Shown here: piece after piece, positions 1-520 of the stretch
Position numbering within the stretch: the first letter of the stretch is position 1
How the letters are laid out: each line of letters starts with the position of its first letter
NCBI GenBank assembly: GCA_020722005.1
Contig: DYLP01000027.1
Location: forward strand, 252 to 33,373
From: Melioribacter roseus
GTDB taxonomy: Bacteria; Bacteroidota; Ignavibacteria; Ignavibacteriales; Melioribacteraceae
Length of the DNA stretch: 33,122 bases
Reading direction: 5' to 3'
The notes under the pieces: model-generated
Seen by the model: the letters and a program-made list of their open reading frames with translations, nothing else
Told to the model about the DNA's origin: nothing
Databases searched by the model: none
Program-made: the position numbers and the translations under genes

Positions 1-13
1 AAACGTAAAACAT
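1..13 (-). CDS. Start of a second GIY-YIG gene copy, cut by the window edge
   Basis: The minus strand shows ATG at 13-11 followed by codons for F-Y-V, identical to the first 13 coding bases of the full gene at 325-313. The 42 bases upstream are also identical to those upstream of the full copy. Seen: start codon and identical leader. Inferred: a second copy of the gene continues to the left. It could instead be only a duplicated 5' end. Confidence 0.4.
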
Positions 14-55
14 AAAATGCTGTGCTTGAAAATGCAGAGGCGGCGGTCGGATTCG
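1..55. repeat. Direct repeat, copy 1
   Basis: This stretch is identical over all 55 bases to 313-367. It covers the start of a GIY-YIG gene, the spacer, and the acceptor and T-arm end of tRNA-Cys. The two copies lie 312 bases apart, which defines the length of a tandem unit made of GIY-YIG gene, tRNA fragment and spacer. Confidence 0.9.
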
Positions 56-88
56 CCCGCCTAAGGCGGGTTGCAGACCTTCGCCTTA
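39..88 (-). pseudogene. tRNA-Cys remnant carrying a palindrome
   Basis: Compared with the intact tRNA-Cys at 350-423, bases 39-55 (acceptor 3' strand and part of the T arm) and 71-88 (anticodon region and part of the D arm) are identical. The 18 bases between them (3' anticodon strand, variable loop, 5' T stem) are replaced by a 15-base palindrome at 56-70. The 5' acceptor strand is missing because the GIY-YIG gene joins here: its stop codon is the TAA of TAAGGCG. It cannot fold as a tRNA, so it is a remnant of a tRNA gene or part of a mobile unit. Confidence 0.8.
56..70. repeat. GC-rich palindrome, copy 1
   Basis: CCCGCCTAAGGCGGG has 7-base arms around a single central A. It stands out in an AT-rich neighbourhood. 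An identical copy lies at 469-483 in the same position relative to another tRNA-Cys-like remnant. It could be a small palindromic insertion or an endonuclease-related site. Confidence 0.8.
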
Positions 89-325
89 TTTAGAGATAGA
101 ATTTAAGAATTCTCTGCCTTTACCAGTTTTGAAGAATTTTTCTCTTTCCATAGCATCAGATTTTTGGGGGAAAGATTCATAGTAAGTCAACTCAAAGGGG
201 CGACGATAGCGAGTAGATTTTACCAGTCCACGTTGGTGTTCCGAGAAGCGACGAGCAATGTCATTAGTGATACCAATATACCTTTTATTGTCTTTTAGAC
301 TTCTTAAGACATAAACGTAAAACAT
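86..325 (-). CDS. Small GIY-YIG endonuclease-domain protein
   Basis: The 79-residue product is a minimal GIY-YIG domain of the UPF0213/YhbQ type. Tyr5, the YIG triplet at 16-18, Arg25/Arg26 and a glutamate near 60 (MERE) match the conserved active-site pattern. The family cleaves DNA or acts in repair or mobility; the role of single-domain members is mostly unknown. The gene begins 24 bases downstream of the intact tRNA-Cys on the same strand, and its stop codon is the first three bases of a damaged tRNA-Cys copy. Leader and start codon recur at 1-55, so it seems to be part of a tandem unit. No clear Shine-Dalgarno site is visible. It could be a selfish element tied to tRNA-Cys or a passenger of tRNA duplication. 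The domain call is firm; the mobility idea is inference. Confidence 0.85.
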   Translation of the reverse strand: MFYVYVLRSLKDNKRYIGITNDIARRFSEHQRGLVKSTRYRRPFELTYYESFPQKSDAMEREKFFKTGKGREFLNSISK

Positions 326-367
326 AAAATGCTGTGCTTGAAAATGCAGAGGCGGCGGTCGGATTCG
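313..367. repeat. Direct repeat, copy 2
   Basis: Identical to 1-55. This copy runs from the first codons of the complete GIY-YIG gene through the spacer into the 3' end of the intact tRNA-Cys gene. Confidence 0.9.
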
Positions 368-423
368 AACCGACGAATAAAGGTTTTGCAGACCTTCGCC
401 TTAGACCACTTGGCTACGCCGCC
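350..423 (-). tRNA. tRNA-Cys (anticodon GCA)
   Basis: Reading the minus strand gives a full cloverleaf. The acceptor GGCGGCG pairs with CGCCGCC, the D loop holds AGTGGT, the anticodon loop is CTGCAAA with GCA, and the T arm holds GGTTCGAATCC. The discriminator base is U and CCA is not encoded. This is the only intact tRNA-Cys in the window, with damaged relatives on both sides. Confidence 0.95.
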
Positions 424-452: not shown

Positions 453-520
453 TCGGCGGTCGGATTCGCCCGCCTAAGGCGGGTTGCAAAATTATAGCTT
501 AGACCACCAGTAACCAGTAA
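453..520 (-). pseudogene. Decayed tRNA-Cys-like remnant with the same palindrome
   Basis: Bases 454-468 match the T-arm end of tRNA-Cys exactly. They are followed by the palindrome at 469-483, then TTGCA as in the anticodon region, then a diverged stretch that regains identity at CTTAGACCAC (D-loop region, about 499-508). Beyond this the match fades, so the right boundary is approximate. It is older than the copy at 39-88 but shows the same replacement of the anticodon and T-stem segment. Confidence 0.65.
469..483. repeat. GC-rich palindrome, copy 2
   Basis: The same 15 bases as 56-70, again set between the T-arm end and the TTGCA of a tRNA-Cys-like remnant. Confidence 0.8.

Follow-up and report, generated by a model that had tools for sequence, protein, structure and literature searches.

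A tRNA-adjoining GIY-YIG nuclease unit of about 300 bases that looks like a widespread minimal mobile element of bacteria

A unit of about 300 bases that adjoins tRNA genes and carries the gene of a single small GIY-YIG nuclease looks, from the comparison of sequences across genomes, like a widespread and apparently undescribed minimal mobile element. The reading that we prefer, and that we hold with modest confidence to be the correct one, is that of a minimal, homing-like selfish element that is specific for a tRNA isotype and in which a nuclease of about 80 residues is joined by a short spacer and by a fragment of the tRNA that usually bears a hairpin. The initial annotation of the array described below had proposed a mobile element that inserts at a tRNA gene and amplifies in tandem, and this proposal is largely supported by a second gene copy, by empty sites, and by the proximity of such genes to tRNAs, with mobility through a cut made by the nuclease itself being the part that we infer. 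The anatomy that it gave stands, and what it left out is the hairpin found in most remnants, the 18 tRNA isotypes, the occurrence of both geometries, and the nuclease-free derivatives.

Results

A tandem array at a tRNA-Cys gene of Melioribacter roseus

The window, by which we mean the whole stretch of 33,122 nucleotides that was analyzed, corresponds to bases 252-33373 of contig C5 in a genome assembly of 2.66 Mb and 79 contigs. One end of a tandem array lies at window positions 1-423, where an intact tRNA-Cys gene is followed by a spacer, a GIY-YIG gene, a tRNA-Cys remnant, the spacer again, and the next gene (Table 1). The initial annotation had described an intact tRNA-Cys, a spacer, a 79-residue GIY-YIG gene, and a remnant that shares its TAA with the stop of the gene, and ARAGORN, Rfam, Pfam, and alignment to the tRNA all agree with it: the remnant consists of tRNA-Cys positions 21-75 with the middle swapped (TAAGGCGAAGGTCTGCAA / CCCGCCTTAGGCGGG / CGAATCCGACCGCCGCCTC), and the gene stops at the first TAA of this remnant. 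The identity that had been reported between bases 1-55 and 313-367 holds at 55/55 positions. A second gene copy, which it had suggested looking for to the left of position 1, is found there, since beyond 100 N (C5 152-251) there are 55 bases (C5 97-151) that repeat, without a difference, a part of the gene's 3' half, past which the sequence of C5 diverges; this indicates a further copy that is apparently cut at its 3' end, and the 100-N gap hides the true copy number.

Table 1. Features of the array end at tRNA-Cys, in window coordinates
Feature	Position	Strand	Basis
Next GIY-YIG copy, first 13 bases	1..13	-	Repeat comparison
Spacer, second copy	14..36	-	55/55 repeat
tRNA-Cys remnant: tRNA positions 21-38, hairpin, positions 57-75	37..88	-	Sequence, alignment to tRNA
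Perfect palindrome CCCGCCTAAGGCGGG (+ strand) within remnant, tRNA position 38|57	56..70		Hairpin search
GIY-YIG nuclease gene, 79 aa, UPF0213/Slx1-like	86..325	-	ORF; Pfam PF01541 E 1.8e-18
tRNA-gene spacer TGCATTTTCAAGCACAGCATTTT, 23 bases	326..348	-	Sequence; repeat at 14-36
Intact tRNA-Cys(GCA), restored copy	349..423	-	ARAGORN; Rfam match 350-423
Further tRNA-Cys relic, 5' side of intact tRNA, 35/35 bases = 41-75; hairpin 469-483	454..488	-	Repeat and hairpin search

A second array of the same plan lies on contig C31 of this genome at tRNA-Pro(CGG) and has two copies of a 313-bp unit. These two tandem genes and the gene in the window are three of five PF01541 matches in the genome, and the other two belong to long frames (622 and 552 codons) that we regard as UvrC-like. 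The unit of 311-313 bp fits one GIY-YIG open reading frame and has no integrase or recombinase, by which an integrase-bearing tRNA element is rejected, and a group I intron or IStron is rejected by a search at the Rfam gathering threshold, which finds tRNA only, in the window and at locus L009, and no ribozyme.

Eight of the 32 tRNA genes of this genome lie less than 500 bp from a contig end, against an expectation of about 3% (hand count), and hidden arrays at tRNA genes may break its assembly. The position of the window near a contig end and next to the 100-N gap could itself suggest an artefact of assembly, or chance, but the same anatomy recurs in the single-contig genomes G001, G035, G046, and G048 and in named isolates of, for example, Flavobacterium, Winogradskyella, and Joostella, which refutes this explanation and leaves it a negligible probability.

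Arrays beside tRNA genes in related genomes

PF01541 matches are present in 58/58 genomes searched (57 relatives and the window's own). Nine near-complete genomes were re-searched for this domain, and the stand-alone clusters were fetched from five single-contig genomes, in which 21 of 36 stand-alone GIY-YIG clusters have a tRNA on the same strand within 300 bp (7/11 in G001, 2/4 in G035, 6/6 in G046, 4/11 in G048, and 2/4 in G049), with the chance rate for such proximity estimated by hand at about 0.5%. None of these 36 clusters has a tRNA on the opposite strand only within 300 bp, and no tRNA was found in the 3.2-kb stretches around four long-frame GIY-YIG loci fetched from two genomes. The arrays of the relatives have 2-5 intact copies, the largest, with five, being at tRNA-Leu in G046 (450-bp unit) and at tRNA-Asp in G048 (315-bp unit), and 6 of the 12 loci compared (L077, L101, L059, L066, L065, and L075) end, on the side away from the tRNA, in a truncated copy.

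The other 15 of the 36 clusters in the five single-contig genomes are without a tRNA within 300 bp, and several are in other repeats or beside tmRNA. At L047, L063, L064, L083, and L089 (G001 and G048) stand-alone GIY-YIG genes with no nearby tRNA sit amid other intergenic repeats, such as the repeat beside the L047 gene, TGTCATCCTGAA...TTTCAGGATCT, and palindromes occur in several such loci; these tRNA-free genes may represent a related kind of element that is associated with such other repeats. At L087 (G048:C1 around 2259464) the gene follows a tmRNA gene (Rfam match 479-837), about 160 bp further downstream, and so tmRNA may also be targeted, through its tRNA-like end. The stretch L091 (G016:C1:205029-213704) has a pair of GIY-YIG genes separated by about 6.5 kb and contains 13 palindromes of type ATACCCGC/ATTCCCGC. 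At L068 (G001:C1 around 1598250) another gene with a GIY-YIG domain is preceded by a piece of tRNA-Asp whose hairpin is degenerate; this piece is a displaced remnant, about 26 kb from the tRNA-Asp array.

Spread across bacteria and association with tRNA isotype

Contigs were scanned with an alignment of six sequences, mostly of the Cys type, and the best 80 of 221 confirmed loci were kept. Among these best 80 of 221, 65 have a tRNA within 150 bp, with the gene on the tRNA strand in 65/65; a search for UPF0213-like genes within 50 bp of tRNA genes had been suggested by the initial annotation. The 65 tRNA-adjoining loci come from 14 named phylum-rank groups: 27 are from Bacteroidota, including cultured Flavobacteriaceae, 12 from Ignavibacteriota, 4 from Omnitrophota, 3 from Calditrichota, 2 each from Elusimicrobiota, Acidobacteriota, Chlorobiota, and Altimarinota, and 1 each from six others, with 5 unassigned. 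In other phyla the closest relatives, again among the best 80 of 221, often adjoin tRNA-Cys. The 15 of the best 80 of 221 that are without a tRNA within 150 bp include both Cloacimonadota loci, and some of them are at contig ends.

Eighteen tRNA isotypes are represented among 109 tRNA-neighbor GIY-YIG proteins, and on a tree of these proteins the isotype changes 36 times, compared with at least 62 changes in 200 shuffles (mean 69.6), on a tree that has 72 columns and mostly weak forks and in which near copies add to the clustering by isotype. Judged from this tree, the lineage of the protein follows the tRNA isotype across hosts.

The GIY-YIG protein

By sequence similarity and catalytic motif the window protein belongs to the UPF0213/Slx1-like GIY-YIG family. 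Residues Y16, G18, R26, H30, A58, E62, and K66 are invariant in an alignment of 23 sequences, a set that we take to include the GIY-YIG catalytic residues. Pfam matches GIY-YIG at residues 1-69 of 79 and, weakly, T5orf172 at 3-51, and it finds nuclease-domain models only and no separate DNA-binding module in this 79-residue protein; GIY-YIG homing enzymes usually have such a module. The nearest solved structures by sequence are the UPF0213 proteins 1zg2 and 1ywl and SLX1, followed by I-TevI. Matches to PHROG homing endonuclease families are weak (E 2e-6 and 7e-6), and the match to the NCBIfam group I intron endonuclease is below its cut-off. Cargo of phages or plasmids was considered and rejected, with 2 phage and 13 plasmid records all below 60% identity, as was a defense system, for which one of three proteins gave weak matches (E 3e-4 and 5e-4).

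Between the window gene and that of G001 dN is 0.134 and dS is saturated, and for Pro-type orthologs dN is 0.07-0.10 at a dS of about 1.6, values that point to purifying selection on the gene between genomes. Two copies from the L065 array differ by one synonymous and three nonsynonymous changes, with no sign of selection within this array.

tRNA remnants and their hairpins

The units occur in two geometries, type 5, in which the order is intact tRNA, spacer, gene, and remnant, and type 3, in which it is remnant, gene, spacer, and intact tRNA. In general, a remnant of type 5 reaches the 3' end of the tRNA and one of type 3 begins at its 5' end, so that in both geometries one intact tRNA is kept, with a partial copy across the gene. 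In a set of 117 loci, restricted to tRNAs on the strand of the gene and no more than 300 bp from it, pieces of the cognate tRNA score at least 16 in 83, and in 42 the cognate piece beat about 39 other tRNAs per locus, a control that is severe because tRNAs of one isotype are alike. By this cognate-piece test the remnant is absent from some loci, for example L013, L067, L081, and L171.

In most remnants the tRNA sequence is broken by a perfect, GC-rich palindrome. A hairpin lies in the 160 nt on the remnant side of the gene at 75 of 116 loci, where dinucleotide shuffles lead one to expect 3.4; beyond the intact tRNA one is present at 26 of 112 loci, some of these being perhaps terminators or older relics. 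In 83/117 loci one or both flanks of a hairpin match the cognate tRNA, and 34/117 lack such a hairpin. A strict search (stem of at least 6 with 5 or more G or C, loop of at most 5) of the 33-kb window gives two hairpins, both in tRNA-Cys remnants, and across the genome CCCGCCTNAGGCGGG is confined to these same two places, both of them tRNA-Cys relics, so that for this one pattern searched a dispersed palindrome family is not seen in the genome. Among the 117 tRNAs classed as intact by ARAGORN, two themselves contain a strict hairpin (L195 and, in the T-arm, L199), and both were kept in the counts. At L195 (Chitinophagaceae) this is a tRNA-Pro 3' of the gene with the hairpin in its D-arm, and on that account it is probably itself a tagged copy, in which case the tRNA on the 5' side may be the true intact one.

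The place of the hairpin within the tRNA is set by isotype more than by phylum or geometry. For tRNA-Cys a hairpin is present in 15 of 21 loci, in 15/15 at 36-38|55-57 and in 15/15 between the flanks TCTGCAA (or like) and CGAATCC (or like), and this place is common to Ignavibacteria, Bacteroidota, and Calditrichota and, in the other geometry, Elusimicrobia; L132 and L136 are loci that have the Cys place in that geometry. For tRNA-Arg it is present in 24 of 33 loci, 22 of the 24 having it in the D-loop at 21-23|22-24, and a type-5 locus of Flavobacterium G111 (L287) has a near-perfect hairpin at this D-loop place and a second in the T-loop, so that the Arg place, too, recurs in the other geometry. 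Four type-5 loci of tRNA-Asp have the hairpin at 50-51|59-60 and the type-3 locus L153 has it at 22|37; for tRNA-Asn the place varies between loci. In single loci of Pro (L101), Val (L094), Ala (L176), and Lys (L031) the anticodon arm is replaced by a hairpin of like length, and some remnants hold two hairpins. The letters of the palindrome differ from locus to locus, and the arm-swap comparison of hairpins, having used loci preselected for near-perfect pairing, is no fair test of covariation. When the remnant is folded as single-stranded DNA, the lowest-energy form pairs the hairpin arms with other parts of the tRNA, and thus the fold does not show the hairpin as such. The GIY-YIG gene of G007 contains an in-frame insert with a short palindrome. 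A further Arg-type hairpin, CCTGCCTGCCGGCAGGCAGG, is found at 601-620 of L286 (G058, Flavobacterium), a 1.2-kb stretch without tRNA or GIY gene, and hence hairpins are not always tied to tRNA.

One reading of these hairpins is that they form a REP-like pair with a structure-specific nuclease, such that the hairpin, or the cloverleaf formed by single-stranded tRNA DNA, would be the substrate, cutting would drive recombination into tRNA genes, and the hairpin would be an active site of the element and no scar. Such a reading would be in keeping with UPF0213 and SLX1 as the nearest solved relatives, with a protein in which no separate DNA-binding part was found, and with hairpins whose letters vary by locus and which take D-, anticodon-, or T-arm places, at times two to a remnant. 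Alone, however, it gives no reason for the nuclease lineage to follow the isotype, and a cut at the hairpin with repair from the intact tRNA should erase hairpins, which the arrays L077, L079, L082, and L101 nevertheless keep, and for these reasons we regard it as unlikely.

Empty sites and nuclease-free relics

tRNA-Cys genes both with and without the unit, which the initial annotation had proposed searching for in related genomes, were found: tRNA-Cys is present in 55 of the 58 genomes searched, and of 51 tRNA-Cys loci examined, that of the window among them, 5 carry the gene, 40 are without it within 600 bp, and 6 are at contig ends, meaning ends less than 200 bp from the tRNA. The occupied tRNA-Cys genes are those of G000 (the window's genome), G001, G007, G024, and G041, with the gene always 3' of the tRNA and on the same strand, and the tRNA-Cys of G010, which is outside the 51 loci, is probably occupied as well, judging by coordinates. 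tRNA-Gly is upstream of tRNA-Cys in 50 of the 51 stretches, the exception being L223, which begins 76 bases before the tRNA. The tRNA-Cys beside the element is the same as that of the unoccupied G017 at 75/75 bases, and only the remnant is altered. When downstream flanks of occupied and unoccupied tRNA-Cys are compared they mostly do not align, and only G041 (L052) has a downstream stretch that is common to unoccupied tRNA-Cys relatives.

In Flavobacterium soyangense (L184) the insert begins with the tRNA-Arg remnant, stops where the intact tRNA starts, and is 311 bp long; it is made up of the gene and the duplicated part of the tRNA. The empty junction at tRNA-Arg that this predicts is matched, with 11 to 56 bases of upstream flank, by 11 of 33 loci taken from 61 genomes of the genus, where two of the 33 are L184's own place and most of the non-matching loci have one flank only; the known occupied places L253-L256 match the joined flanks only from the tRNA onward. 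The tRNA-Ser(gct) genes of G000 and G001 were rejected as an empty-site pair, as L120 aligns to L065 through the truncated terminal gene copy and so represents a contracted or ancestral state and no empty site, and for Leu and Ser(cga) the same two genomes gave no usable downstream flank.

The distribution over tRNA-Cys loci also bears on a role that is useful to the host, in which the gene would be co-transcribed with the tRNA and act at the RNA level in tRNA expression, decay, or quality control, while the hairpin would block folding or processing of the remnant as a tRNA. A gene that is very close to the tRNA and on its strand in 65/65 loci (best 80 of 221), low dN compared with dS between genomes, and a hairpin in place of the anticodon arm (Ala L176, Lys L031, Val L094, and Pro L101) would all suit such a role, but presence is patchy, at 5/51 tRNA-Cys loci, the isotypes are many, and gene copies are found broken or truncated, all of which makes it quite improbable.

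Hairpin-tagged tRNA sequence is found without the gene as well. G009 has a hairpin-tagged piece about 65 bp after tRNA-Cys and no gene, G055 has a full-length hairpin-tagged tRNA-Cys upstream of tRNA-Cys and no gene, and full-length tagged copies are also present in G019 (a contig-end case) and G001. In G048 (L207 1564-2405) tRNA-Cys is followed by 9.1 tandem copies of a 92-bp unit with the hairpin-bearing 3' part of tRNA-Cys and no nuclease gene. This array and the gene-free tagged duplicates imply that the repeats can grow without the gene in cis, which would be expected if the nuclease were a passive passenger with no part in insertion or amplification and the tRNA repeats recombined unaided. 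A passenger would not account for a gene family that recurs by 18 isotypes in many phyla with intact catalytic residues and isotype-linked lineages, and we consider it very improbable. Ordinary recombination between repeats, which the initial annotation had offered as an alternative, may still be the last step of amplification, and a nuclease-free array does exist.

Discussion

Under the reading that we prefer, of a homing-like selfish element specific for a tRNA isotype, the nuclease would break its own tRNA gene at the place where remnants hold the hairpin (Cys 38-57, Arg 22|23). The two ends of the broken tRNA would match the element-bearing locus on both sides of the element, and repair from that locus would insert the nuclease and a part of the tRNA in such a way that one intact tRNA results. 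The other tRNA copy would stay as a remnant with the hairpin in place of the cut site, and we propose that for this reason the remnant could not be cut again. Recutting of the restored tRNA, with repair from the sister copy, would add units and yield arrays whose remnants keep the hairpin. Loss of the nuclease would then give rise to hairpin-tagged relics and nuclease-free arrays, and copying of the remnant only would produce a full-length hairpin-tagged tRNA without gene, a form that is seen in relatives. The cleavage, its site, the repair route, and the role and origin of the hairpin are in this scheme predictions drawn from the arrangement of the loci.

One consequence concerns the donor. 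As the restored tRNA-Cys is identical to that of the unoccupied G017, the donor should be cut too, and the cell must tolerate or limit cutting. Assuming that the cleavage site is within the tRNA, classical homing immunity would thus be lacking, and since neither an altered site nor a separate DNA-binding part is found we do not class the protein as a classical homing endonuclease. More tentatively, the unit may represent a new class of autonomous mobile element, in which a nuclease of about 80 residues and a working hairpin would target isotype-specific tRNA loops, spread between phyla, and leave MITE-like nuclease-free derivatives, and which would perhaps be among the smallest in bacteria; we see this as plausible and put it forward with less confidence than the homing-like reading itself.

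The unit can be set beside several known systems. Tyrosine-integrase elements insert at tRNA genes, restore an intact tRNA, and leave a fragment, and the likeness lies in the restored tRNA and the leftover fragment, whereas the unit described here has no integrase, is about 310 bp long, and has a duplicated tRNA part that is either 5' or 3'. REP elements are short GC-rich palindromes linked to the RAYT transposase, a small nuclease gene, and the unit likewise pairs a GC-rich palindrome with a small nuclease gene, but its enzyme is of another class and its hairpin is at fixed places within tRNA sequence; a REP/RAYT-like system is rejected because the gene of the unit is GIY-YIG and not a Y1 (HUH) transposase. 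The UPF0213/Slx1-like single-domain proteins 1zg2 and 1ywl are of the same family and size; in the unit described here the gene is tied to tRNA fragments and hairpins.

SegB of phage T6/T4, at about 220 residues, is larger than the nuclease of about 80 residues found here. SegB is described as a free-standing GIY-YIG homing endonuclease that cuts tRNA genes at the motif RAWTSGAAC and that drives tandem tRNA-segB repeats arisen under defense pressure (PMC13096335). By our own reading, RAWTSGAAC is the tRNA T-loop on the other strand. The resemblance consists in a GIY-YIG nuclease by tRNA genes and in tandem tRNA-nuclease repeats, and the difference is that SegB belongs to a phage and the present unit to the chromosome, and that "hairpin" and "palindrom" occur 0 times in the main text on SegB (PMC13096335). 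Mobile ORFs of fungal mitochondria (Allomyces atp6; Glomus atp6, atp9, cox2, and nad3) are described as bringing a replacement gene end and leaving the native end as a remnant; they are similar in having an endonuclease gene in a host gene with a replacement end and a remnant, and different in that the hosts are mitochondrial protein genes and the enzymes LAGLIDADG or GIY-YIG, and the passages that describe them speak of no hairpin in the remnant and of no arrays (PMC3630166). The unit would work like SegB and like the fungal mobile ORFs, and there is a fair chance that it forms a class of its own. Among the papers listed in full-text searches of a literature that took in some subscription journals and no preprints, none presents bacterial chromosomal GIY-YIG genes with tRNA remnants in its title or in the opening of its abstract.

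If the preferred reading is correct, many bacteria, among them cultured Flavobacteriaceae and many uncultured lineages, would house in their tRNA genes a very small selfish element, the gene of which annotation would list as a mere "GIY-YIG nuclease family" member, and the element may account for some assembly breaks at tRNA genes. It would offer a simple system in which to ask how a single-domain nuclease finds one tRNA gene, and also how an inserting element spares an essential gene and how palindromes arise at fixed sites.
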